A stretch of 46,592 bases of DNA from Saprospiraceae bacterium (GTDB lineage Bacteria; Bacteroidota; Bacteroidia; Chitinophagales; Saprospiraceae), in the NCBI GenBank assembly GCA_022841505.1, contig JALHRK010000007.1, positions 1 through 46,592 of the forward strand, in the 5' to 3' direction. This document shows, piece after piece, positions 14,789 through 43,841 of this stretch. Under the pieces are notes generated by a model that was not told where the DNA came from, did no database searches, and worked only from the letters and a program-made list of their open reading frames with translations. Position numbers and translations under genes: made by a program. Each line of letters opens with the position of its first letter. The stretch's first letter is position 1.

Positions 14789-14838
14789 CAAGAGACGAAT
14801 TGCTTTCAACAGTCCCACTCCTGGTCAAAATATTTGCT

Positions 14839-17700
14839 ATGAATTTCAGAAACCGTTGCTTAATTTTTTTCCTACTTGCCGGAGCACTCCAGATAACTTC
14901 TACCCAGTTCCTGAATGGTCAAGACTTGTTAGTGGGCGTCGTCAGTAACAAACTCATGTCCATATCACCTGTTAATGGCACACTTACAGAACTGGCAGAT
15001 TTGTCACCAGCTCTGCAACCACAAATCCGGGGAATCACTTACCATCCAGAAAGGTGCTTGTTTTATTGTTTTATTGATGAATTGACCACGCCCAAGTTGG
15101 TTAGTATCACTTTAGACGGCACGACAAGTCTTATTGGGAACATTACCCTTCCTTCCAATATGGTTACGATTGTCGAGAGCATCAGTTATAATGACGCCGA
15201 CGGCCAAGTCTATCTGTCAGCGAGAATCAACCAGCCAGCAGGGCCCGGCACGTATTTCAGCGCTACTATACTTCAGGTTAATGTTGACAATGCGGTTTGC
15301 AGCCTGGTTGGAAACGTGAATACAGCTGTTACACCAGATATTGATGCGATGGCCCATTACAATGGCGATTTTATTATGAGCGACATCAGCTCAGCTCCGT
15401 TTAGTACCTGGGCTCGCTTTTACCGATTTCCGCCATCGTTCATTGGCTCGGGATCTAATCTCCCTGAGATTTATGCTGTCAACGATTTTCAAACGACTTC
15501 GGACCTTTCGGTTTACCAGGACGAGCTCTATTTCACCGCTAACCGCAGGCTTTACAAGGGAGATCCGGATAATTTCATTCCCGTTTTGGTAGGACAGATG
15601 TACACGGCAGCGGAGTACGGTGGGGCACTGTTGCGCGCTATTGCAACGGTGTCGCCAAGCACCATCGCCAGCATCACATTAGGGCCTGATCTTGAACTTT
15701 GTACAGGAGAAACGGCTACGCTTGAGATTGCACCAATATCGGGCGCTTCGATCATCTGGAGCAATGGCGTTATCGGGCCCGTTAATCCCGTGAGCAGTTC
15801 TGGAACGTATTGGGTTGAGGCATCACAGGGAGCCTGCGCCTCAGTTTCGGATACCGTTGTGGTGAATTTCAACAACGAGCCAATGCCAGTAAATTTAGGG
15901 CCTGATCTTGAACTTTGCAATGGAGAAACGGCTACGTTCCAAATTCCGGAAGAAACCGGGGCTTCCATCCTCTGGAGCAACGGAGCCACCGGGCCGGCCA
16001 TCACCGTAAATAGTTCCGGAACGTATTGGGTGCAGGTAACGCTGGGCACCTGTGCGCCGGTTTTAGATACCGTTGTAGTGAATTTCAACAACGAGCCAAT
16101 GCCGGTAAATTTAGGGCCTGACCTCGAGCTTTGTACCGGAGAAATGGCTACCCTTCAAATTCCGGAAGAAGCTGGGGCTTCCATACTTTGGAGCAACGGC
16201 GCTAGCGGACCCGCCATCACCGTAAATAGTTCCGGAACGTATTGGGTGCAGGTAACGCTGGGCACCTGCGCGCCGGTTTCCGATACCGTGGTTGTCAGCT
16301 TTACACCTGTGCCATTGCCGGTAAGCTTGGGGCCTGATCTTGAACTTTGCAATGGAGAAACGGCGACCCTCCAAATTGTAGAAGAAGCCGGCGCTTCCAT
16401 CCTCTGGAGCAGTGGCTTTACCGGACCGGCCATCACCGTGAATAGTTCCGGAACGTATTGGGTGCAGGTAACGCTGGGAACCTGTGCGCCGGTTTCCGAT
16501 ACCGTTGTGGTGAATTTCAACAACGAGCCAATGCCGGTTAATTTAGGGCCTGACCTCGAGCTTTGTACCGGAGAAACAGCTACCCTTCAAATTCCGGCAG
16601 AAGCTGGGGCTTCCATACTTTGGAGCAACGGCGCCACCGAGTCGGCCATCACCGTAAATAGCTCCGGAACGTATTGGGTGCAGGTAACACTGGGCACCTG
16701 CGCGCCGGTTTCGGATACCGTGGTCGTCAACTTTACACCGGGGCCTATGCCGATAAATCTCGGACCTGATCTTGAACTTTGCAATGGAGAAACGGCTACG
16801 CTTCAAATTCCGGAAGAAACCGAGGCTTCCATCATCTGGAGCAATGGCGCTAGCGGACCCGCCATCACCGTAAATAGTTCCGGATCGTATTGGGTGCAAG
16901 TGACACTGGGCACCTGCGCGCCGGTTTCGGATACCGTTGTGGTGAATTTCAACAACGAGCCAATGCCGGTAAATTTAGAGCCTGATCTTGAGCTTTGTAC
17001 CGGAGAAACAGCTACCCTTCAAATTCCGGCAGAAGCTGGGGCTTCCATACTTTGGAGCAACGGCGCAACCGAGTCGGCCATCACCGTAAATAGCTCCGGA
17101 ACGTATTGGGTGCAAGTAACACTGGGCACCTGTGCGCCGGTTTCGGATACCGTGGTCGTCAACTTTACACCGGGGCCTATGCCGATAAATTTCGGGCCTG
17201 ATCTTGAACTTTGCAATGGCGAAACGGCTACGCTTCAAATTCCGGAAGAAGCCGGGGCTTCCATCCTCTGGAGCAACGGCGCAACCGGACCCGCCATCAC
17301 CGTAAATAGTTCCGGAACGTATTGGGTGCAAGTGACACTGGGCACCTGCGCGCCGGTTTCTGATACCGTTGTGGTGAATTTTTTACAATGCCCGGATTTA
17401 AACTGCACCTACAAATACTTCATTCCCAATGCATTTTCCCCCAATGAAGATGGCATAAATGATAAATTCGAGGTGTATATTAATCCGGCGTCTTGTATGC
17501 TGGAGTCTATTCAGGTGCAAATTTTTGATCGCTGGGGCGAACTTGTCTACAAGGGAAGCAGTTTGTCTGCGTGGGATGGTGTGTTTCGCGGTAAAAAAGC
17601 GCTGAGCGGTGTTTATGTTTACATGATCAATATGGCATTCAACAGAGGAGGAATTACTGAAACTGTATTTGAAAAAGGAGATGTAACCTTAATTAGATAA
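14839..17700 (+). CDS. T9SS-exported protein with eight Ig-like tandem repeats and a CHU_C sorting domain
   Basis: About 953 residues. A signal peptide (MNFRNRCLIFFLLAGALQIT...) is followed by a roughly 260-residue N-terminal region with beta-propeller-like repeats (LLVGVVSNKLMSISPVNGTL, GGALLRAIATV). Residues about 281-849 are eight copies of a 72-residue module, each with LGPDLELC, GETATLQI, ILWSNGA, SSGTYWVQVTLGTC and DTVVVNF; the two cysteines per unit may form a disulfide. This is the PKD/Ig-like module often linked to T9SS cargo. The C-terminus (YFIPNAFSPNEDGINDKFEV, IFDRWGELVYKG, WDGVFRGKKALSGVYVY) is the gliding-motility-associated CHU_C type B sorting signal. The protein is thus secreted and likely anchored outside the cell as an adhesin or stalk. 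ATG 14839 is chosen over an earlier start because the signal peptide begins there. Confidence 0.92.
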   Translation: MNFRNRCLIFFLLAGALQITSTQFLNGQDLLVGVVSNKLMSISPVNGTLTELADLSPALQPQIRGITYHPERCLFYCFIDELTTPKLVSITLDGTTSLIGNITLPSNMVTIVESISYNDADGQVYLSARINQPAGPGTYFSATILQVNVDNAVCSLVGNVNTAVTPDIDAMAHYNGDFIMSDISSAPFSTWARFYRFPPSFIGSGSNLPEIYAVNDFQTTSDLSVYQDELYFTANRRLYKGDPDNFIPVLVGQMYTAAEYGGALLRAIATVSPSTIASITLGPDLELCTGETATLEIAPISGASIIWSNGVIGPVNPVSSSGTYWVEASQGACASVSDTVVVNFNNEPMPVNLGPDLELCNGETATFQIPEETGASILWSNGATGPAITVNSSGTYWVQVTLGTCAPVLDTVVVNFNNEPMPVNLGPDLELCTGEMATLQIPEEAGASILWSNGASGPAITVNSSGTYWVQVTLGTCAPVSDTVVVSFTPVPLPVSLGPDLELCNGETATLQIVEEAGASILWSSGFTGPAITVNSSGTYWVQVTLGTCAPVSDTVVVNFNNEPMPVNLGPDLELCTGETATLQIPAEAGASILWSNGATESAITVNSSGTYWVQVTLGTCAPVSDTVVVNFTPGPMPINLGPDLELCNGETATLQIPEETEASIIWSNGASGPAITVNSSGSYWVQVTLGTCAPVSDTVVVNFNNEPMPVNLEPDLELCTGETATLQIPAEAGASILWSNGATESAITVNSSGTYWVQVTLGTCAPVSDTVVVNFTPGPMPINFGPDLELCNGETATLQIPEEAGASILWSNGATGPAITVNSSGTYWVQVTLGTCAPVSDTVVVNFLQCPDLNCTYKYFIPNAFSPNEDGINDKFEVYINPASCMLESIQVQIFDRWGELVYKGSSLSAWDGVFRGKKALSGVYVYMINMAFNRGGITETVFEKGDVTLIR
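15679..17385 (+). repeat. Eight in-frame 216-bp tandem repeats
   Basis: Units start at 15679, 15895, 16111, 16327, 16543, 16759, 16975 and 17191, every step exactly 216 bases, with no indels. Units 5-6 and 7-8 are near-identical pairs (both odd units carry AEAGASILWSNGATES), which gives a 432-bp higher-order period. Inter-unit linkers alternate between NNEPMPV and TPGPMPI types. The array codes for the Ig-like modules of the surrounding protein. Confidence 0.95.
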
Positions 17701-17708
17701 CATAAAAA

Positions 17709-17744
17709 AACAGGAGACATCCATTTTTTTGGATGTCTCCTGTT
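17709..17744 (-). terminator. Intrinsic terminator between convergent genes
   Basis: A perfect 15-bp stem (AACAGGAGACATCCA / TGGATGTCTCCTGTT) with a short T-rich loop. On the minus strand it is followed directly by seven Ts, so it ends the TonB receptor-DUF5689 operon. It also sits 8 bases after the stop of the plus-strand gene and may help end that transcript. Confidence 0.9.
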
Positions 17745-17769: not shown

Positions 17770-19782
17770 CTACGGCGTCACATCGCTTGTGTTGCGAATA
17801 ATTACCTGGCCAGCATTGAATTGCGACACAACGGCCACAATTGAAACCGGCCCGGTTGGGACGGATGTCCCAGAAAAAGTGGCCTGTGTACGGGTGAACA
17901 TATCCAGCGTGCCAGTTCCATCATTGAGGCTTTTCGCACCGGAGTAAGTTCCGCCGCCCGTAATGGTCACGTTGATGATCTTTACGAGCGTAGATTCCCA
18001 GGCTTCCAGATTCGCCAGGATCTCGGCGATGGTCGCCTGACGTGGCGTTGGCAAGGTACCAGGGCCAAAAGAAGTTGCATTGGCATTGGGTACATTGTTG
18101 ATCTGGAGCAAGCCATTAAATTCGGAGAGTTCCGCACCGGAAACAATAATCTCAACTTCCTGTCCGAGCGCAATGGTATGTGCAGCAGTAAAGCGAACGG
18201 CGATGCCGCCGCTGGCATCCTGAATAACCATATTGCGGTCAGCCCAGTTAAAATTAGATGCATCGGAGATCACCACACCTTTTACTTTTTTTGCAGCCGG
18301 AACGCTGCTGGCGCCGCCAGCAAATAGGGTGCGAAGTTCACCGAGCGTAATTTCAACGGGGTCGCCACCGCTACCACCGCCGGTCACGTCGCTCAACGAC
18401 CTGATGCTCAATTGTGCATCGTTGAATTGAGAGACAATGGCTACGATGTCCACGTTTCCGGTTGGCAATGCAGCTCCGGAGAACGTCGCCTGAGAGCGGG
18501 TAAAAAGGATAACCGTACCGGTTCCGTCGGAAAGGGTACGCGAGCCGGAATAGGTTGCGCCACCGCTCAGGGTTGCAGCATTTACCTTTACTAAAGTAGA
18601 TTCCCACGCATTCAGGTTGGCGTTAATTTCCGCAACGGTCGCTACACGTGGTGTAGGCAAAGTTCCTGTGCCGGTTGAAGTTGCTGCATTGTTCGGTACA
18701 TTGTTGACCTGAAGCAGGCCATTGAATTCAGACAATTCCTGGCCGTCAACAGAGACTTCCACTTCATCGCCAAGATCGAAGTTGTGGGCTGCTGAAAAGC
18801 GCACGACAATGCCGCCGCTGGCATCCTGCAATACAATGTTTCTGGTATCTGTGTTGACGCCAGTTCTGTCAGAAATGACCACACCTTTGATGGATTTTCC
18901 GGCAGGGCCAGCCGTGGTTCCGGCAGTAAATAGGTTGCGTACATCGTTGATTGGAATGACATCGCCGCCTGGGCCAACGCCGCCGCAGCGGTCGCTGCTC
19001 ATCTGCACGTCGTTCAGGTCGCGGATGTTCAACTGCTTCGTATTGCCGAAAATGCTTACCACTGCAACAATAGAGCCTTTCCCGGTAGGTGTCAGTTCTG
19101 CTGCGAAATCCGCAAAACCGCTTGATCGCAGGATGATGGAATTGCCGTTGCAATCCTCCACGTTCCGGTTGAGCGAAAACTGGGTAACTGCATTGGCATA
19201 AGTCGCACCTGCATCAGCTTGTGCAAACTGCACATCGTTGATCTGGATTAGCGTATTGACCAGGGAATTGTAAAATGTAGTGTTCTGCAATTCTGCCAAC
19301 GTCACCACTTTTGGCGCCACGGTTTGATCCCGCTCAGCGCCAATGACGTGTTCGGGGATCAGCACTTCTTCCAGGGCAGCGTCTACGCTGCCGTTCACCT
19401 GATGCAAGCCGTTGTAGTCGCCGATATAGAGGTTTTTAGCCAGCAGGAATACTTTGCGGCCAACCGGAAAATCGTTGTACAAGCCGGTGGAATTCAGGCG
19501 AATTGCAATACCGCCGGTTTCATCCTGGATGACGATGTTTTTGAAAAAATTGCCCGATTCATCATCGGCAACCACAATACCGTCAACAATCCAGTCTTCG
19601 GTCACTAAATTACTGACACCACCAACAGTGTGCAGCGCTTTTAGCTGTGCAATGGTCGCATTTGCTTCCAGATCAGGCAACTCGCCTACTGGCGGTTCAT
19701 CGAACTCACGGTCTACACAACCCCAGGTGGTGAGCGAAATCAGTAACGCGAACAGCGAAAATCGTTTTAAGAAGAAAGCCAT
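17770..19782 (-). CDS. DUF5689 lipoprotein with repeated OB-like domains
   Basis: 670 residues. A lipoprotein signal peptide ends LTTWGC (Cys22), followed by acidic residues suited to outer-membrane or surface placement. The body has an N-terminal DUF5689 unit (LEANATIAQLKALHT, VDGIVVADDESGNFFKNIVI) and two long near-copies of about 200 residues. Each copy runs through KGVVISD, NIVLQDASGGIVVRF, LGDEVEV, ELSEFNGLLQVNNVPN, PTPRVATVAEI and AWESTLVKV, then FTRSQATFSG and VAIVSQFN. The beta-rich GxV...I.D.tGGI.v.f..GdeV.v.g pattern resembles OB-like folds found beside secreted nucleases. It is translated 30 bases after the TonB receptor, so it probably serves that receptor as a surface-exposed binding lipoprotein. 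Ligand unknown; nucleic acids are a hypothesis. Confidence 0.85.
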   Translation of the reverse strand: MAFFLKRFSLFALLISLTTWGCVDREFDEPPVGELPDLEANATIAQLKALHTVGGVSNLVTEDWIVDGIVVADDESGNFFKNIVIQDETGGIAIRLNSTGLYNDFPVGRKVFLLAKNLYIGDYNGLHQVNGSVDAALEEVLIPEHVIGAERDQTVAPKVVTLAELQNTTFYNSLVNTLIQINDVQFAQADAGATYANAVTQFSLNRNVEDCNGNSIILRSSGFADFAAELTPTGKGSIVAVVSIFGNTKQLNIRDLNDVQMSSDRCGGVGPGGDVIPINDVRNLFTAGTTAGPAGKSIKGVVISDRTGVNTDTRNIVLQDASGGIVVRFSAAHNFDLGDEVEVSVDGQELSEFNGLLQVNNVPNNAATSTGTGTLPTPRVATVAEINANLNAWESTLVKVNAATLSGGATYSGSRTLSDGTGTVILFTRSQATFSGAALPTGNVDIVAIVSQFNDAQLSIRSLSDVTGGGSGGDPVEITLGELRTLFAGGASSVPAAKKVKGVVISDASNFNWADRNMVIQDASGGIAVRFTAAHTIALGQEVEIIVSGAELSEFNGLLQINNVPNANATSFGPGTLPTPRQATIAEILANLEAWESTLVKIINVTITGGGTYSGAKSLNDGTGTLDMFTRTQATFSGTSVPTGPVSIVAVVSQFNAGQVIIRNTSDVTP

Positions 19783-19812
19783 AACAGATGATGTATTTTA
19801 ATTTTTTAAATA

Positions 19813-22620
19813 TCAGATCCGGAAAGCCAAACTCACAAAGTAGTTTCTGCCAAATCCATAAAAATAACGCGGTGGAAACCTGTTGACGTTTTTGCCCTCA
19901 AAATCAAAGCGGTATTGTTCGTAGCCGCCGGTAATAAAGTCTTTTTTATCCAGGATATTGTTCACCCCTACGTTCAGGTAAATGAACAAATTGTTGATTT
20001 TCCAGGATTTACCACCAAAAAAATCCATCGTGAATGCGGATGGCGCTTTTTGCTGATCAATGATCTGTTTCCACAACGGTGAACCGGGTTCTACGACCTC
20101 GTTGGCGTATTCCGGATCATCCACATAGGAAACAGCCTCCGTGGTGCGGCGTTCCGGGAAAAAATCAATCCAACTGTTGTCGAAGTAATTGAAACTCAGG
20201 TTAGCAAACCAAAACCGCTTAGCATTGTAACTTAGTGTGAAAGTCATGGCGGTTTGCGGAGAGCCGGCGACATAGAAATTCTTGATGTAAACTTGTCGTT
20301 TGCCTAATGACGCAGCGTCCTGATCCAGAAAAACTTCCACATCCGGACGGTTGGTATAAATATTCTCTCCAATTGCAGCAACGGCTTTCGCTTTTAACCC
20401 AGTGATGGGTGTGGTAACTTCGGCGGCCAATTCAAGCCCCATGTGTTGGGTGGAGATATTGCTCATGATGTAGTTTACAAAACCGCCGCTTACTCCGCTG
20501 TCATCAACCAGGGCATTGTCTAAGTAAAAACTGCGGATGTTGATCTGGTTGTCAAACTGCGTGAAATATCCGGTCGCTTTAATTTTCAACCCTGGCGAAC
20601 GGAGCAGGTAATTGATTTCCCCTGAAAGGATTTTTTCAAGAACAGCCCCTTCCGCAAAATCGGCGCGGGTACGTGGAGAAAGGTAAGCATTGCGGGTGAA
20701 AGGTGCGCGGGTCAGGTAGGCGCCGTTTAGCACAAGATAATTTCTGCCGTTCAGTTTGTAGGTGACGCCGCCTTTCACGCCGTAATCTATAAAGCTTTGA
20801 ACTTCCGATTTTCCAATGGAATTTTCAAACCTGCCGTTTTGGACGTTTCCTTCGCGCCAGAAACGGGAGTTGTTGGCGTTGGCAGCAGCAAAAAAGTCAA
20901 ATTTGTTGAATTTCCATTCGCCCTGTACCCAGGCGCCTGCCCGGTTGTTGACGATGTCGTAGTTATATCCAAATTTTTCGCCTTCCTGTACAAGTTTGTT
21001 GATCGTGCTGATGTCATTCTGGATAATTTCATTGTCCCCAACGTTACCAAACTCCGCAAATTTGTCAATGTCCAAATAAAAATCACCCCCAAGGAGGTCA
21101 TCCAGTACTTTGAAGTACTTTGTTGTTTGCGATTGGTAGGACAAGCCGGCGGTGAGGGTGAAATTATCGCTGATTGCGCTTCTGAAATTGGAATTGAAAC
21201 TTGCGCGGGTCATGTCAGCCCGGCGTTCCTCCACCACGTACTGCGAGCGTTTTCCAGTTACGCTGTTGCCTTCGATCCCGTCGGCGTCGTTGATGGTTTG
21301 AATGCTGTTGCGGTTTGCTTCGTACATGTGCGCCCAATCAACCTGGCGCAAGTCTTCGTTTTCCCGCAGTAATTGCTCTACGTCGTCGCGTTGGTCGTTT
21401 TCGATGTAGCTCGGCAGGCGGCGATAATAATCCGGTCGGGGATCGCGCGCATTGTACCAGTCGAGCGCCGTGAGCCCGTCGCGTCCGAATTCATAACTAA
21501 TGGCGGTGGTCATCGAAGTTTTGTTCGAAATACTCCAGTCGTGGCGCAGGATCGCTAACGGTTGGTGCGTATTCACCATTTGGCTGTTGCGTTTTTTGCC
21601 GTTCTGATACCCCCAATACGAATTGTAAAAGTTCGTCCCGGCTAAGTCGTACATTTCCTGAACAGAGGAAGTGGAACGCCCGCGAATGATGGGTGCGCCC
21701 AAAGCCGTCAGGTTTAAAGTGTGGCGATCGTTCAGTTTTCGGTCTACCGAAAGGAAGTAGGACCAGGCATCGTAAGAAGTTCCCGGCACATAGCCTTCAT
21801 CCGCCCAGCGACGGGATCCCGAGAGGGTCAAGGCCCATCCGTTTTTCATGCCAGTCGAATAGGTAGCCATTATGCGGTGGCGATACGTTCTGTTGGAAAC
21901 CGCGTAAGAAACGCGCAATTGTTTGCGGTGCGAAGATGCCCGGGTATCAATGCTTACCGCACCGCCTACCCCGCCGAAGGTGTATTCGGTAGGCTGAAGC
22001 CCAATGGAATTGGACCGGCTGCGAACAGCGTCGTTCAAACCACCCCAGGCATTCCAGAAGACAAAACCGTCTTCCTGGTCATTGACCGGGATGTTGTTCA
22101 GGTAAATCAGGTTGTTGTCGGAATCGTAGCCCCTGATGCGAAAACGGGCTGCACTAAAGCCAAAAGCAGCGGTTGAAGCAAAAAGGTCATTGGAGGCGGT
22201 AAGCACCCCGGCAATGTTTTGAGCGCCTTCGCTGCTGCCCTCATCGGAAGAAAGCGTAACGGTGGAGATGACTTCTTCCCCGGAGAGCTGGTCAATTCCT
22301 GCCTGTGCGGCCATACTTATGGCACCCAGGTTAATGTCGCTGGAACTCAGGGTAATCAAGGTATCCAAATTTGCGAAGCCGGGTCGTGAGAAACTCACGA
22401 CAGCATCGCGGGCATCGGAACTGGTAGTAAGGCTGAAAGCGCCGTTGGAGTCGGTGAAAACGCTTGTACGCAACAAACGCACTTCGACACCCGGGACTGC
22501 TTCGCCGGTTTGTCCATCTTTAATACTGCCTTGAATCGTAACAGTTTGAGCCAGAATCAGGGACGGCAAAAAGAAGAATGCAGTGGAGAGAAAAAGGAGT
22601 ACTTTTTTAGAATTAAGCAT
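19813..22620 (-). CDS. TonB-dependent outer-membrane receptor
   Basis: About 935 residues with a signal peptide (ending LPSLILAQT). First comes a carboxypeptidase-regulatory-like domain (VTIQGSIKDGQTGEAVPGVEVRLLRT...NGAFSLTT). The plug domain follows: FSAARFRIRGYDSDNNLIYLNN, DQEDGFVFWNAWGGLND, and TEYTFGGVGGAVSIDTRAS. The 22-strand barrel ends in the Bacteroidota-style RNYFVSLAFRI with a terminal aromatic/hydrophobic pattern. It imports a substrate into the periplasm with TonB energy. No SusD partner is present; instead a DUF5689 lipoprotein follows, so it is not a standard glycan-import pair. ATG 22620 is preferred to TTG 22635. A TACCTTTG -7 box lies 31 bases upstream. Confidence 0.92.
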   Translation of the reverse strand: MLNSKKVLLFLSTAFFFLPSLILAQTVTIQGSIKDGQTGEAVPGVEVRLLRTSVFTDSNGAFSLTTSSDARDAVVSFSRPGFANLDTLITLSSSDINLGAISMAAQAGIDQLSGEEVISTVTLSSDEGSSEGAQNIAGVLTASNDLFASTAAFGFSAARFRIRGYDSDNNLIYLNNIPVNDQEDGFVFWNAWGGLNDAVRSRSNSIGLQPTEYTFGGVGGAVSIDTRASSHRKQLRVSYAVSNRTYRHRIMATYSTGMKNGWALTLSGSRRWADEGYVPGTSYDAWSYFLSVDRKLNDRHTLNLTALGAPIIRGRSTSSVQEMYDLAGTNFYNSYWGYQNGKKRNSQMVNTHQPLAILRHDWSISNKTSMTTAISYEFGRDGLTALDWYNARDPRPDYYRRLPSYIENDQRDDVEQLLRENEDLRQVDWAHMYEANRNSIQTINDADGIEGNSVTGKRSQYVVEERRADMTRASFNSNFRSAISDNFTLTAGLSYQSQTTKYFKVLDDLLGGDFYLDIDKFAEFGNVGDNEIIQNDISTINKLVQEGEKFGYNYDIVNNRAGAWVQGEWKFNKFDFFAAANANNSRFWREGNVQNGRFENSIGKSEVQSFIDYGVKGGVTYKLNGRNYLVLNGAYLTRAPFTRNAYLSPRTRADFAEGAVLEKILSGEINYLLRSPGLKIKATGYFTQFDNQINIRSFYLDNALVDDSGVSGGFVNYIMSNISTQHMGLELAAEVTTPITGLKAKAVAAIGENIYTNRPDVEVFLDQDAASLGKRQVYIKNFYVAGSPQTAMTFTLSYNAKRFWFANLSFNYFDNSWIDFFPERRTTEAVSYVDDPEYANEVVEPGSPLWKQIIDQQKAPSAFTMDFFGGKSWKINNLFIYLNVGVNNILDKKDFITGGYEQYRFDFEGKNVNRFPPRYFYGFGRNYFVSLAFRI

Positions 22621-22650
22621 ACTTTTGAGCTTCAATTAAACAAAGTGATG

Positions 22651-22658
22651 CAAAGGTA
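22651..22658 (-). promoter_or_regulatory. -7 promoter box of the TonB receptor operon
   Basis: TACCTTTG (minus strand, followed by C) is a classic Bacteroidota -7 box, 31 bases upstream of the ATG at 22620. Confidence 0.6.
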
Positions 22659-22774
22659 GCATTTCACTTGAATCGGTCTTTTTTAGATCGGTCAAAATTA
22701 ACGCAAACTTAATTCGCTTTACATATCTGCTGAACAGCATTTGTCGTCCAAGCGTTTTCATCTAATCTACAACC

Positions 22775-23821
22775 ATGAAAAAATCTGTTTTTTTTCTTTT
22801 GCTGCTCATCCTGCCAGCCTTTACCCTGTTTGCTCAAAAAGCGCAACAGTATAAAGTTGGCGCCATCGGATTTTACAATTTGGAGAACCTCTTCGATACC
22901 GAAGATGATCCATTGATCAACGATTCCGAATTTTTGCCTTCCGGCAAAAAAAACTGGACCGAAACCATTTATCAGGAAAAGCAGGGCAATATGGCCCGGG
23001 TCATTTCGGAACTGGGTACAGAACTCAGTCCGGACGGGATTTCGATCCTCGGCGTGGCAGAAATTGAAAACCGAAAGGTACTGGAAGATTTGGTCAAACA
23101 GCCCAAACTCGCTGCACGCAACTACCAGATCATCCATTTTGACTCCCCGGATGAACGCGGCATTGATGTAGGCTTGCTCTATCAGGCCAAGTATTTCAAA
23201 CCTACATCGAGTCAGGCCGTTTTGATGCCTATCTACAACCCGGACGGCAGCACCCGTAAAACCCGCGACATCCTCTTTGTATCGGGCTTATACGACGGGG
23301 AGCCGCTGCATATTTTGGTCAACCACTGGCCTTCCCGCAGTGGCGGGGAAGCAGCCTCTCAGCCCTACCGCAATGCGGCTGCGTTGATTTGCAAAAATAT
23401 TGCGGATTCCCTGATGCAAGCCGATCCGAATGCCAAAATCATCATCATGGGCGACTTGAACGACGACCCCACCAGCCCGAGCGTGAAGAAGATTCTGGCC
23501 GCGAATTTCAAAAAGGAAGACACCAAAAAAGGAGCGCTTTTTAACCCGCTGTACGATTTTTTCAAAAGAGGCATCGGAACGCTGGCCTATCAGGATTCCT
23601 GGAACCTGTTCGACCAGATTATTATTTCCTATGGGTTGATCAACGAAAAAGCCGGGGGATTCCAGTTCTACAATGCCCGGATTTTTAATGAGAACTACCT
23701 GTTTCAAAAATCAGGACAGTACCGGGGCTATCCCCACCGTACTTTTTCAGGCGATACTTATATTGGAGGTTTCAGCGACCATTTGCCTGTCTTTATCTAC
23801 CTTGCGAAACCGATCCAATAA
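22775..23821 (+). CDS. Secreted endonuclease/exonuclease/phosphatase family protein
   Basis: 348 residues with a Sec signal peptide (cleaved near FTLFAQ). The DNase I-like fold is plain: GFYNLENLFDTEDDP (Asn/metal site), ILGVAEIENRKVLEDL with the metal-binding Glu, LVNHWPSRSGGE, IIMGDLNDDPTSPSV with the catalytic Asp/Asn pair, and FSDHLPVFIYL with the Asp-His pair. All catalytic positions are kept. Substrates in this family are DNA, RNA or phosphate mono/diesters; the export signal means it works in the periplasm or outside. It is divergent from the TonB receptor/DUF5689 operon with 154 bases between start codons, which suggests a shared role. A helicase gene follows 12 bases later. Confidence 0.9.
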   Translation: MKKSVFFLLLLILPAFTLFAQKAQQYKVGAIGFYNLENLFDTEDDPLINDSEFLPSGKKNWTETIYQEKQGNMARVISELGTELSPDGISILGVAEIENRKVLEDLVKQPKLAARNYQIIHFDSPDERGIDVGLLYQAKYFKPTSSQAVLMPIYNPDGSTRKTRDILFVSGLYDGEPLHILVNHWPSRSGGEAASQPYRNAAALICKNIADSLMQADPNAKIIIMGDLNDDPTSPSVKKILAANFKKEDTKKGALFNPLYDFFKRGIGTLAYQDSWNLFDQIIISYGLINEKAGGFQFYNARIFNENYLFQKSGQYRGYPHRTFSGDTYIGGFSDHLPVFIYLAKPIQ

Positions 23822-23833
23822 CCTGAAATATCT

Positions 23834-25135
23834 GTGGGACTTGATAAAACGCCATTGGAACTAAACGACGATTTTCGTCTTGCCCTCGACATGATCGAGA
23901 AGCAGGGGCGGAATTTGTTCATTACTGGCAAGGCGGGTACCGGCAAGTCCACTTTGTTGCAATTATTCAGGAGTACCACCCGGAAAAAAACGGTTGTCCT
24001 GGCGCCTACGGGCGTTGCAGCCCTTAATGTGCAAGGGCAAACGATCCATTCATTTTTTGGGTTTCCGGCCAAGCCACTCGACCGTCGCGACATCAAAAAG
24101 CGGTTCAATCGCAAGCTCTATCAGAACATTGAAGTGTTGGTGATTGACGAAATTTCGATGGTACGTGCCGACCTGCTCGACAATATTGACTATTTTCTCA
24201 GGGTAAACCGGGAAAGTCCGTTGCCGTTTGGCGGCGTACAGGTGGTTTTTTTTGGCGATTTGTTTCAGTTGCCGCCCGTGGTGTCCTCTGAAACCGAGAT
24301 GATGTTCCTGCAAACGCGCTATGAATCGCCTTATTTTTTTTCTTCATCCGTCATCCGGTCGGAAATCGAACTGGAGATGTTTGAGCTGCAAAAGGTTTAC
24401 CGGCAGGAGAACAAATATTTTTTGAAACTCTTAGACGCCATCCGCCTGAACCGGGTGGACGAGGACGACCTGGAGGAATTGAATAAGCGCTACATTCCCG
24501 GGTTTACTTCCGCAGATTATTACATCACCCTCTCGGCGCGCAATGCCCGGGTGGATGCGATTAATCTGACGGAGCTTGCGCGTATTCCCCTTCCATCCGC
24601 TACATACGCTGCGCGCGTTACTGGTAGTTTCAACCCCACCCTCTACCCTGCTGAACCGAGCCTTAATTTAAAGCTCAATGCGCAGGTGATGTTTACAAAA
24701 AATGACCTCCAGCGCCGGTTTGTGAATGGCACAATTGGCAAAATTGTCAAGCTGGAAGCCGAAACCGTGACGGTTCTGGTAGAAGAAGGGGAACAGCGGC
24801 GCTACATTGAAACCGAACGCGTGGACTGGGAGGTCTTGCAATACAAAGTTCATCCGGAGGATCAAACCCGCATCGAAACGGAAGTAGTTGGCACGTTTAA
24901 TCAACTACCCCTGCGGTTGGCCTGGGCAGTTACCATCCATAAGTCTCAGGGAAAAACTTTTGACCGGTTGATCGTGGATTTGGATAAAGGCGCCTTTGAA
25001 AACGGGCAGACGTATGTTGCACTCAGCAGGTGCAGAACACTTGATGGCATCGTGCTTCGGCATCCGCTTCGTTATCAGGATATTATGACTGATGAGCGGG
25101 TCGTGGAATTTTACGAACGGCAACTTTACAAATAG
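23834..25135 (+). CDS. PIF1-like ATP-dependent DNA helicase
   Basis: 433 residues. Walker A is ITGKAGTGKSTLLQLF, followed by VVLAPTGVAALNVQGQTIHSFF (PIF1 motif Ia region), Walker B VLVIDEISMVRADLLD, GDLFQLPPV (motif III), and a C-terminal UvrD_C_2-like segment WAVTIHKSQGKTFDRLIVDL plus VALSRCRTLDGI. The enzyme moves 5'-3' on DNA and acts in replication fork, recombination or R-loop upkeep. The start is a GTG at 23834: it is the first possible start after an in-frame TAA and gives the usual 20-30 residues before Walker A. It follows the nuclease gene by 12 bases and is likely co-transcribed, although one protein is exported and the other cytoplasmic. Confidence 0.9.
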   Translation: MGLDKTPLELNDDFRLALDMIEKQGRNLFITGKAGTGKSTLLQLFRSTTRKKTVVLAPTGVAALNVQGQTIHSFFGFPAKPLDRRDIKKRFNRKLYQNIEVLVIDEISMVRADLLDNIDYFLRVNRESPLPFGGVQVVFFGDLFQLPPVVSSETEMMFLQTRYESPYFFSSSVIRSEIELEMFELQKVYRQENKYFLKLLDAIRLNRVDEDDLEELNKRYIPGFTSADYYITLSARNARVDAINLTELARIPLPSATYAARVTGSFNPTLYPAEPSLNLKLNAQVMFTKNDLQRRFVNGTIGKIVKLEAETVTVLVEEGEQRRYIETERVDWEVLQYKVHPEDQTRIETEVVGTFNQLPLRLAWAVTIHKSQGKTFDRLIVDLDKGAFENGQTYVALSRCRTLDGIVLRHPLRYQDIMTDERVVEFYERQLYK

Positions 25136-30085: not shown

Positions 30086-32107
30086 TTAATTGTCCTCAAT
30101 TTGCAGGATCAGCGCCTCTCCGGCTGCAAGTTGTTCGATTTGTAGCAAGCCATCCTGAAAGATCAATTTTGTCAGGTAATTTCTTTCATTTTCCAGCGCC
30201 GAAAAAATGACCCGAAACTTCGCGCCGGGTGCAGTTGAACAAGGGATTTTGACCCTTTGAGCAGCTTGTTGCAGGTTGGAATTGACCACGAAAACATAGG
30301 CGCCCTGATCCTGATGCGTCCAGGCTATGACCTGCCGGGCAGCCGTTGCATCGGGCGGGGTCAGCCAGGAAAGGGAACTGGAAAGGCTGGGCAACAAACG
30401 TTCAGCTTCATTTCGGATGCGGTTCAGGCGCTGGAACAAGGTCAGGTTATTTCCAAAAACATAGGGCCCTTGCGTACGTTTTGGCCCGTCTTCCATGCGG
30501 AAAACATACAGTTTGGTGTAGTGTTCATTGGGCGCCGGTTCGGGATGCGGATCCCTGCATTCAAACCCAAGCGCCATATAGCTAGGCATGTCGGTCAGAA
30601 AAAGTCCCATAAAAAAACGGGCCTCATTCCCGGCCTGATAAAACTTGTCGAACCGCGGATCGTCCTTATCCCCCGTCATCAGGGTAAAGCAGGGTGCGAA
30701 GCCCCGCGTGTGCAACAAATCGAGGTAAAACCGGAAATTTTGAAGAAAATCGGGTTCGCCTAATACCATAGATTGCAAATCGCCAAGCGTGGCATCAGCT
30801 TCCGAAAGATCAAGATGGTCTTCTTCGCTGCCGTAGGCCATCGTTCCGGGCGGCGCGAGGAAGGTTTCGGCAAAATAAGCAAACCAGGGCTTTTCCTCCC
30901 TTACCTTTCTAAGTACGGCACGATGGATGTCATAATATTCGTCCGCGACTTCAGGCACGCCTTCCGGTCGCATTTGCACATGTGACATGTCCCCCCGCAT
31001 AAAATCGAAATGGTAGATCCGTTGCACGGCAGCGTATTGGTTGCACACGTATTCCCAGACCTCGATTTGCGGGCGCTCAAAATCGAATTCCCAATCGCGG
31101 TTGTCGTTTTTATTTTCGTACAGTTTATACTGGGTTAACGGACCAAATACCCTCGACATCGGGCCGGGGTTGATGATGCGGTAATCCAGCCAGGCGTCAT
31201 CAGCTATCGTCTTTGCCGACGCTTCGTCAATATCCACTTCCAGGCCCCGGTAAGGTGGCCCCATGGTTGCAGGCACAGGTTCCAGGCCCTGCTTGTGTAG
31301 GTACTGGATGAATACGGACCTGCGTTCATTGCGGGCAAAATCGTTGTTTTGATCGCCAAACAGGAGAAGGCATCGGGTTGCTTCAGGCAGTTTAAAGAAC
31401 GCCTGGGCATTCGCAGGCAAAATAGCTCCGGAGTGAGCCGGGCCAAGTTCCTGTAAACATTGATAAATATACTCTTCAACGCGTTTATAAAGTTGTGCGC
31501 TGTGATCGTTGATCTTCGCTCCTTTTCGTTGCATCCACTCAAAAAAAGCCGGATTGGCGAGTACAATTTCTGAATAGCGGTCGGTGTGCGGTATGACGTC
31601 CATGCCCACCACACGGCCCAGAGCATGCAGCAGGTTAACCGTTACTTTGAGTTGTTTTTCAACGCTGTCCAATTCCGGCAGAGCATCGGCCAATTCCTGG
31701 CTGAAAAACTCCCGGTTGATGTGCCAACTCGCCATACCGTAAAGGCTGGCTACGACTCCGGGTTCCCAGATAGGAAGCAAATGAACCGCTTGCTGGCAGG
31801 CAGGAACGGTGAACAGATAATTGACTAAATTCCAGAAATTCCCGATGGTGCGAACGTTTATCCCCACCATATTGGCCGTACGCAGCCAGTTTCCATCGTT
31901 CAGGTGTTCAATTGGAGAAGGCTGCGTATATACCGGGTTGATCACTTTTTCAAACAGGTCAGCGCCTAACTTTTGCTTTAACACGGCCAATGTCGTGGCT
32001 ACAGGCAGGCAGATGGCAGCTGCCGGCGTTAGGTTTTCAAGGTATGAGCTTTTTCCGTTGAGATAGGCATCTAATCCGGTCAGGTCTGAATAGGCGGTTG
32101 CGTTCAT
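30086..32107 (-). CDS. GH13-like (alpha-amylase superfamily) protein of unusual type
   Basis: 673 residues with no signal peptide, so cytoplasmic. A (beta/alpha)8 barrel of amylase type is suggested by four motifs in order: GMDVIPHTDRYSE (168-180, region I), HFDFMRGDMSHVQ with Arg371, Asp373 and His376 (region II, RxDxxH as in GlgE-like enzymes), FAETFLAPPG with Glu414 (region III), and LMTGDKDDPR with Asp480/482 (region IV). The C-terminal 90 residues look like a beta-sandwich (AYVFVVNSNLQQAAQRVKIP, LQIEQLAAGEALILQIEDN). The ATG overlaps the stop of the upstream GT4 gene (ATGA, 32104-32107), so the two proteins are made together. Substrate unknown; an alpha-glucan or maltosyl-type transfer is one option. 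The family is not one I can name with certainty. Confidence 0.7.
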   Translation of the reverse strand: MNATAYSDLTGLDAYLNGKSSYLENLTPAAAICLPVATTLAVLKQKLGADLFEKVINPVYTQPSPIEHLNDGNWLRTANMVGINVRTIGNFWNLVNYLFTVPACQQAVHLLPIWEPGVVASLYGMASWHINREFFSQELADALPELDSVEKQLKVTVNLLHALGRVVGMDVIPHTDRYSEIVLANPAFFEWMQRKGAKINDHSAQLYKRVEEYIYQCLQELGPAHSGAILPANAQAFFKLPEATRCLLLFGDQNNDFARNERRSVFIQYLHKQGLEPVPATMGPPYRGLEVDIDEASAKTIADDAWLDYRIINPGPMSRVFGPLTQYKLYENKNDNRDWEFDFERPQIEVWEYVCNQYAAVQRIYHFDFMRGDMSHVQMRPEGVPEVADEYYDIHRAVLRKVREEKPWFAYFAETFLAPPGTMAYGSEEDHLDLSEADATLGDLQSMVLGEPDFLQNFRFYLDLLHTRGFAPCFTLMTGDKDDPRFDKFYQAGNEARFFMGLFLTDMPSYMALGFECRDPHPEPAPNEHYTKLYVFRMEDGPKRTQGPYVFGNNLTLFQRLNRIRNEAERLLPSLSSSLSWLTPPDATAARQVIAWTHQDQGAYVFVVNSNLQQAAQRVKIPCSTAPGAKFRVIFSALENERNYLTKLIFQDGLLQIEQLAAGEALILQIEDN

Positions 32108-42404: not shown

Positions 42405-43841
42405 TCAATACAAGGACAACAGCCATTCGCGTTCTGCCAGATACTCCGTTTGCGTAATCTCCTTTTTGAGTTTACCCCGCTCCGTGGCGCTCCTCCTGGC
42501 AGGAACAATCATTTTTTTCATAAACCGCACAAAATTCCGGTACATTTCCCGGTGGTAGCCGCCTTCCCGATGGCGGCGCAGGTAGATGTCGAAGCTGTCC
42601 AACAACGATTCGAGCGCCTGGAGCTCGCCCTGTTCGTAGTACATGCGCACCATCATGCGGCGGGCGTCGAAATTTTCGAGCATTTCGCGCAATTCCACGT
42701 GCCGCAGGAGTTCCAGCGCTGCATCGTATTCCTGTTTTCGGAAATAATAGGTGGCTAAGTTGTAGCGGTAAATGTTTTCCCGGTCTTTTGGCGACAGAAA
42801 AGATTGAAATTCCTGGAGGTAGCTGAACGCCCAGTCCCACTCTCCTACCCCGACTGCGATATTCATGACGTTGCGGTAGGTCGTTTTAGAAAGGTATCCG
42901 TTTTCGAGAAATACCCGCCGCTCCAGCCCGCTCCGGTACAAATCAAAAGCCTCCCGCATGTATTTTTTATCGGCGGCGTTGATCCTTCGGATGCAAACAT
43001 TCAGCGCCAGAATATACAGGTCGCGCAGATCGGGGTTCGGAAAGACTTCGCCATTTTTAGCAAGGAGTGCTTTTAAACGCAGAAAGTGCGCTTCATTTTC
43101 CGGTTCTGCAAGGGCAACATAACTGGCGTGCCAGGTTTCAACCGCGGCGTTGTCCCGAAAAACGCCTTCCTCCACCAAACGCAAAGTTTCAGGCAGGTAA
43201 GGAATAATGGCCGAAACATTCGACATGGACTTTTGTGCCAGCAGGGAACAGCCTTGTCGGAAAGAATTGACGGCCACAAAAACGCCGAAAGCCCGGTTCA
43301 TTGCTTCCACATTATCTACCCCGCTGCGGTGTTTTTGTCTGCCGAGTTCCCAGACTTCCTGTTCCAATGCAAACTGATAAAAATAGTAGCCATCGTGGCG
43401 AAAAGCGGATTGAGCGAGCGCAGATTTTGAGCGCTCCAATTCCTTTTCCCAAAATTCATTGGCGCCCAGTTTTTTCAGCGCATAACACAGGTGCAGGTTC
43501 ACATTTGATGGTTCATTGTTCCATTCCTGCCAGGCCAAACAATTGCGGATCACTTCGAGCAGGTAGGCCATCAGGTGGCGCATTTTGCCGTCGTCGTAGG
43601 CAATGGATTTTTTTGGGCTTCCCGCAAATACTGATTCAAAGGCAGCTTCTTTGGTGAAACCATCCGCCTTTTTACGTCCGGGTTTTGCAGGGCTTTCAGA
43701 TGCCTGCTTTTCTATAAAATCCAGTAAACGAGTCACTTCTTCCCGTTGGTTGAACAAAGGCGAACGCACGGCTTTGGCGATGAGGCGACGTTGGGCATCG
43801 GGTAGGGTTTGCCAAACTTTGACGATGGTTGCGCTTTTCAT
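42405..43841 (-). CDS. Helical-repeat protein of unknown function
   Basis: 478 residues, no signal peptide or membrane segment. The sequence is almost all amphipathic helices, TPR-like in the second half: WAFSYLQEFQSFLSPKDREN, NLATYYFRKQEYDAALELLRHVE and MYYEQGELQALESLLDSFDIYLRRHR. The N-terminal 60 residues (VWQTLPDAQRRLIAKAVRSPLFNQREEVTRLLDF) look like a short helical bundle. The C-terminal 40 are basic. It is not recognised; a cytoplasmic protein-binding scaffold is likely. It is convergent with the DHFR-like gene and divergent from the large T9SS cargo gene, sharing a 170-base AT-rich gap with it. Confidence 0.7.
   Translation of the reverse strand: MKSATIVKVWQTLPDAQRRLIAKAVRSPLFNQREEVTRLLDFIEKQASESPAKPGRKKADGFTKEAAFESVFAGSPKKSIAYDDGKMRHLMAYLLEVIRNCLAWQEWNNEPSNVNLHLCYALKKLGANEFWEKELERSKSALAQSAFRHDGYYFYQFALEQEVWELGRQKHRSGVDNVEAMNRAFGVFVAVNSFRQGCSLLAQKSMSNVSAIIPYLPETLRLVEEGVFRDNAAVETWHASYVALAEPENEAHFLRLKALLAKNGEVFPNPDLRDLYILALNVCIRRINAADKKYMREAFDLYRSGLERRVFLENGYLSKTTYRNVMNIAVGVGEWDWAFSYLQEFQSFLSPKDRENIYRYNLATYYFRKQEYDAALELLRHVELREMLENFDARRMMVRMYYEQGELQALESLLDSFDIYLRRHREGGYHREMYRNFVRFMKKMIVPARRSATERGKLKKEITQTEYLAEREWLLSLY

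Follow-up and report, generated by a model that had tools for sequence, protein, structure and literature searches.

A conserved TonB-type receptor, DUF5689 lipoprotein and putative nuclease as a candidate port for DNA capture and import at the surface of Bacteroidota

The gene trio and its flanks

The analysed window is a stretch of 46,592 nucleotides from a Saprospiraceae bacterium (contig JALHRK010000007.1). ORF calls and Pfam placed three genes side by side in this window: a TonB-type receptor, a DUF5689 lipoprotein and a divergent secreted enzyme of the Exo_endo_phos_3 family (Table 1). The lipoprotein gene lies downstream of the receptor gene on the same strand, after a gap of 30 bp. Gene order and export signals were as the original prediction had stated, with a signal peptide on each of the three proteins. 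The same holds for the 154 bases between the divergent starts, counted from the receptor ATG to the enzyme ATG. An alternative TTG start proposed by the ORF caller would move the beginning of the receptor from 22620 to 22635.

Table 1. Positions of the trio and of neighbouring features in the window.
Feature	Position	Strand	Remarks
TonB-type outer-membrane receptor	19813-22620	minus	935 aa from ATG; signal peptide, CarboxypepD_reg-like domain, plug, barrel
DUF5689 lipoprotein	17770-19782	minus	670 aa; three repeats; Pfam DUF5689 E 2e-130 over three stretches
DUF5689 repeat 1	19006-19665	minus	PF18942, 231 bits
DUF5689 repeat 2	18385-18960	minus	PF18942, 116.9 bits
DUF5689 repeat 3	17779-18354	minus	PF18942, 108.4 bits; predicted tandem OB fold
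Secreted Exo_endo_phos_3 (DNase I/EEP-fold) enzyme	22775-23821	plus	348 aa; cleavable signal peptide
Divergent intergenic region	22621-22774		154 bp between receptor and enzyme
TAATTTTG (TAnnTTTG)	22693-22700	minus	promoter-like element in the divergent intergenic region
Terminator hairpin	17709-17744		15-bp perfect stem with T runs; separates the lipoprotein gene from the convergent T9SS-protein gene
PIF1-like SF1 helicase	23834-25135	plus	Pfam; starts 12 bp 3' of the nuclease

In the case of the receptor, the Plug domain (PF07715) passed its Pfam cut-off (27 bits, cut-off 23.9) and the CarboxypepD_reg match stayed slightly below its own (31.9 bits, cut-off 32.3). A TonB-box-like segment, EEVISTVTL, was read by eye and is poorly conserved. 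The signal peptide of the lipoprotein ends in LTTWGC-VDREFDEPP, with an acidic stretch following the lipobox cysteine (CVDREFDEPP), and this lipobox pattern is common to its relatives. Residues 9-277 additionally match the NCBIfam model NF052645, with a score under the model cut-off. According to Pfam the lipoprotein matches DUF5689 only and no SusD-family domain is present in the trio, in agreement with the claim that a DUF5689 lipoprotein occupies the place of SusD.

The enzyme shows a full-length Pfam match to Exo_endo_phos_3 (PF19580), a member of the EEP superfamily (E 1.6e-124). Its active site is intact in the alignment (N35, E98, H184, D227, N229, D335, H336), and none of the corresponding EEP catalytic motifs (Asn, Glu, His, Asp-x-Asn, Asp-His) varies among 29 relatives, Riemerella included. 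The catalytic motifs originally reported for this DNase I-fold protein are all present. Profile matches to EEP enzymes were weak and confined to nocturnin and one EEP protein; no close solved structure was found in PDB and profile searches. Single-sequence PDB searches gave no match for any of the three proteins.

On the lipoprotein side, the receptor and lipoprotein pair ends in the terminator hairpin, which is strong by its predicted RNA fold (-25.6 kcal/mol, z -9.6). Next to it, at 14800-17700 and convergent with the trio, lies a gene for a protein with T9SS type B sorting in which a repeat (GPDLELCxGExATLQI) recurs about eight times in near-identical form. Elsewhere in the window, ORFs 30086-32107 (673 aa) and 42405-43841 (478 aa) had zero Pfam matches. 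The divergent gap contains the TAnnTTTG element, which we take to be of the Bacteroidota -7 promoter type, and GTTAATTTTG-like words are enriched across 55 receptor-enzyme intergenic regions. A dedicated operator in this gap was considered and rejected, as the standard promoter-like element alone stood out.

On the enzyme side, the helicase gene is probably co-transcribed with that of the nuclease. The two adjoin on the same strand in 10 loci including the window (gaps -20 to 67) and lie 1-2 kb apart in two further loci. The helicase is a lineage-specific neighbour and not a core part of the trio. In relatives it often overlaps the nuclease stop codon by 4 bp. A cytoplasmic helicase beside a secreted nuclease might have a role in processing incoming DNA.

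A predicted tandem OB fold in an acidic lipoprotein

To describe the fold of DUF5689, repeat 3 was used (AF2, pLDDT 85.5, pTM 0.79), because AF2 confidence was low on repeat 1 (pLDDT 48). The top PDB matches of the repeat 3 model in Foldseek were Teb1 AB (E 2e-7), HIN-200 dsDNA sensors and RPA70. Its N-terminal half superposes on OB domains with a VIA Z of about 11. The C-terminal half resembles OB folds in the weaker repeat 1 model, from which the corresponding superposition was taken (Z 7-8). Over the whole domain TM-scores were only 0.3-0.4, which means that the two OB domains are arranged differently with respect to each other than in solved pairs. Sequence profiles gave weak OB hints only, namely to RPA (E 0.4-0.8) and tRNA_anti-codon. 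The original prediction had called DUF5689 OB-like, and structure comparison with AF2, Foldseek and VIA points the same way, DUF5689 being predicted to consist of tandem OB folds.

In predicted fold and in the order of the two OB domains, DUF5689 thus resembles the tandem-OB binders Teb1, HIN-200 and RPA70. Unlike these, it is extracellular and acidic, and sequence homology is limited to the weak RPA matches. The OB domains of tRNA synthetases score as high as nucleic-acid OB domains in the comparison of the N-terminal half, and therefore the fold leaves the ligand unfixed; OB folds bind proteins, sugars or RNA as well. The isoelectric point of the lipoprotein is 4.46 in the window, with a median of 4.38 (n=68) and a value of 5.29 in Riemerella. 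This strong acidity is unlike most DNA-binding proteins and counts against simple DNA binding.

Conservation of the trio and its counterpart in Riemerella

To follow the neighbourhood through the phylum, the genome of the window and those of 60 relatives (61 in total) were searched separately for the receptor, for DUF5689 and for the EEP enzyme. The NCBIfam lipoprotein model was additionally run against a phylum-wide sample, after which the gene neighbourhoods were retrieved. Using profiles built from the nearest set, we compared 69 loci with orthologous receptors (type A) from many families. In 65 of these loci the lipoprotein gene follows the receptor gene immediately, on its strand and after no more than 119 bp, and in 55 the EEP enzyme is divergent and at most 400 bp from the receptor; both hold in 52/69. 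Since loci were picked via receptor or DUF5689 matches, the enzyme frequency is independent of the choice of loci and the DUF5689 count partly is not. The trio neighbourhood is conserved far beyond chance, in line with the original prediction of a single three-gene module. No DUF5689 was found in viral contigs.

Several variants could be identified. Two loci (L145 and L146) have enzyme and receptor adjacent and co-oriented rather than divergent, and in about a fifth of the 69 loci the enzyme is not linked to the receptor. Type B loci (L049-L055, L057) combine a paralogous receptor with a T9SS-sorted PLD-family enzyme, which has two HKD motifs and a DUF5689 domain at its N-terminus, and with a T9SS lamin-tail protein. 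PLD enzymes adjoin the type A loci L074 and L079 too. The presence of two unrelated phosphodiesterase families beside receptors of a single family suggests nucleic acid as the common substrate. DUF5017 proteins also occur beside the receptor, next to DUF5689 or replacing it (L047:1260-3635, three stretches; L048:6526-8514).

In the literature, DUF5689 appears in a transposon screen for natural transformation of R. anatipestifer (PMC8459023). There, the receptor-like RA0C_RS04915 and RA0C_RS04920, which contains DUF5689 plus DUF5017, form one operon, and markerless deletion of either gene abolishes transformation (PMC8459023). With both mutants, as with comEC and dprA, transformation drops under the detection limit, whereas the loss is partial for most envelope genes; the authors already proposed that RS04920 binds DNA, which passes via RS04915 (PMC8459023). 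In addition, tonBA and tonBB mutants of R. anatipestifer transform poorly, and tonBA does so without an iron defect, an effect that according to the authors possibly runs via nutrients (PMC8383284). No follow-up on RS04915 was found among the papers searched.

We located the R. anatipestifer locus in strain CCUG25054 from the published comEC primer, then the receptor and then the region. Its order is comEC, a 145 aa protein, a 542 aa protein, the EEP enzyme, the receptor and the DUF5689(+DUF5017) lipoprotein. Riemerella thus carries the same trio as the window, with the lipoprotein directly downstream and the divergent EEP enzyme upstream. As this order matches the RS04895-RS04920 numbering, the enzyme would correspond to RS04910, the numbering being that of a different strain. 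The window receptor and the R. anatipestifer receptor share 34% identity over 15-939 (E 4e-134). In a tree of 80 receptors, RS04915 falls inside the clade of the window and the paralogue clade is separate (99-100 SH-aLRT). At the sequence level, this placement confirms the window receptor as orthologous to RA0C_RS04915, and the window lipoprotein is the counterpart of RA0C_RS04920, differing from it in its three DUF5689 repeats and in the lack of DUF5017. The receptor tree broadly follows family codes, suggesting vertical descent. For the original prediction, a link of the receptor's clade to some other ligand would have been a refutation; the outcome speaks for nucleic acid, as the Riemerella orthologue is essential for transformation.

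In contrast to the Riemerella trio, no comEC was seen beside the trio of the window, and a partial comEC lies on another contig. All receptor-positive genomes tested have comEC, as do 23/26 genomes without the receptor. Because comEC is nearly as common without the receptor, it is too widespread to discriminate, and we rejected its co-occurrence as support for a role of the trio; it lends little support to a DNA port. A 646-aa gene near a Chryseobacterium-like trio was considered as ComEC and rejected, as this gene is Rho.

A candidate port for DNA and competing explanations

In its architecture, the trio shares with SusC/SusD and PusC/PusD a TonB-type receptor with an N-terminal carboxypeptidase-like domain and a lipoprotein from the next gene. 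It differs from SusC/SusD in that the lipoprotein is a DUF5689 protein of predicted tandem-OB fold without a SusD match, and in that a putative nuclease replaces the glycanase or phosphatase. With a probability of roughly two in three, we interpret the trio as a TonB-powered port on the surface of Bacteroidota that captures and imports DNA and is able to feed ComEC. The lipoprotein would cap the receptor at the cell surface, as SusD does on SusC, and grip extracellular DNA. The secreted EEP enzyme would nick or shorten this DNA, making ends or short pieces available, and the receptor would carry it across the outer membrane. Periplasmic DNA could then go to ComEC for natural transformation or to degradation for nutrients. 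Direct DNA binding, transit of DNA through the receptor, direct TonB coupling, and the substrate of the enzyme with its role in DNA preparation are steps that we infer. A wider version is tentative: DNA itself would be the TonB-driven substrate, and receptor and tandem-OB lipoprotein would be a Bacteroidota-wide outer-membrane transformation channel in the role held elsewhere by type IV pili and secretins, for which interchangeable secreted EEP or PLD nucleases would prepare the DNA.

In the window's organism the trio could also serve nutrition only, digesting nucleic acid or phosphate esters and importing (oligo)nucleotides for P, N or C, so that transformation in Riemerella would be a by-product. 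Secreted EEP or PLD phosphodiesterases adjoin the receptor, the arrangement of receptor, lipoprotein and enzyme is similar to nutrient systems, and F. johnsoniae, which has the pair, failed to transform in one test (PMC7965970). The genome of this organism, recognised from a gldH primer, has the receptor at 1.32 Mb of 6.097 Mb and no EEP enzyme adjacent to the receptor-lipoprotein pair. Its EEP gene and the pair (L168; G614:C1:1393148) are about 70 kb apart, and in a further genome (G228) this distance is about 49 kb. Under Pi starvation, F. johnsoniae induces other TonB receptors and other nucleases (PMC8115612); judged by locus numbers, the position of its receptor does not fit the induced ones. 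The candidate identities of the receptor with Pi-induced Fjoh_3841 and of the nuclease with Fjoh_0074 were likewise rejected, as positions do not fit. Against a nutritional purpose, moreover, no conserved phosphatase or phosphate-transporter neighbour was found among the compared receptor loci, and losing either Riemerella gene abolishes transformation instead of just lowering it. We consider scavenging alone unlikely, and DNA import tied to transformation more likely than phosphate scavenging. For the original prediction this means that its binding, cutting and import of extracellular nucleic acid is still the best reading; the phosphate-scavenging purpose is less well supported, and the experimental link to transformation had been missed.

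Doubts of a different kind concern how directly the proteins act on DNA. Receptor and lipoprotein might import another nutrient or build an envelope needed for competence, with DNA entering otherwise, e.g. through type IV pilus parts. Such an indirect role would agree with the acidity of the lipoproteins, with the dependence of Riemerella transformation on iron, peptone and phosphate (PMC8383284) and with the other envelope genes that reduce it (PMC8459023). It agrees poorly with the complete, comEC-like phenotype of both mutants, and OB folds and adjacent nucleases point to nucleic acid; we regard it as quite improbable. The least probable explanation concerns the enzyme, which could be an unrelated neighbour, e.g. 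a lipid or nucleotide phosphatase, kept near the receptor by vertical descent alone. It sits on a separate strand, is unlinked in the fifth of loci mentioned above and was not recovered in the Riemerella screen, a point that also counts against the DNA port. However, the linkage is kept in 55/69 loci across deep splits while flanking genes change, and L145 and L146 retain the enzyme beside the receptor even on the same strand.

The DNA port remains our preferred interpretation, and two of its three parts, receptor and lipoprotein, are already published for Riemerella. New here are the nuclease partner, the OB fold, the phylogenetic breadth and the nuclease-swapped variants. Bacteroidota are abundant in soil, water and guts. 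The earlier Riemerella lead on how their DNA uptake passes the outer membrane had a narrow distribution and included neither a lipoprotein fold nor a nuclease; the pair now gains a third conserved partner, a predicted fold of DNA-binding type, an occurrence in many families and variants in which the nuclease is of another kind. Altogether, this turns a one-species screen into a testable model of gene transfer for the whole phylum.
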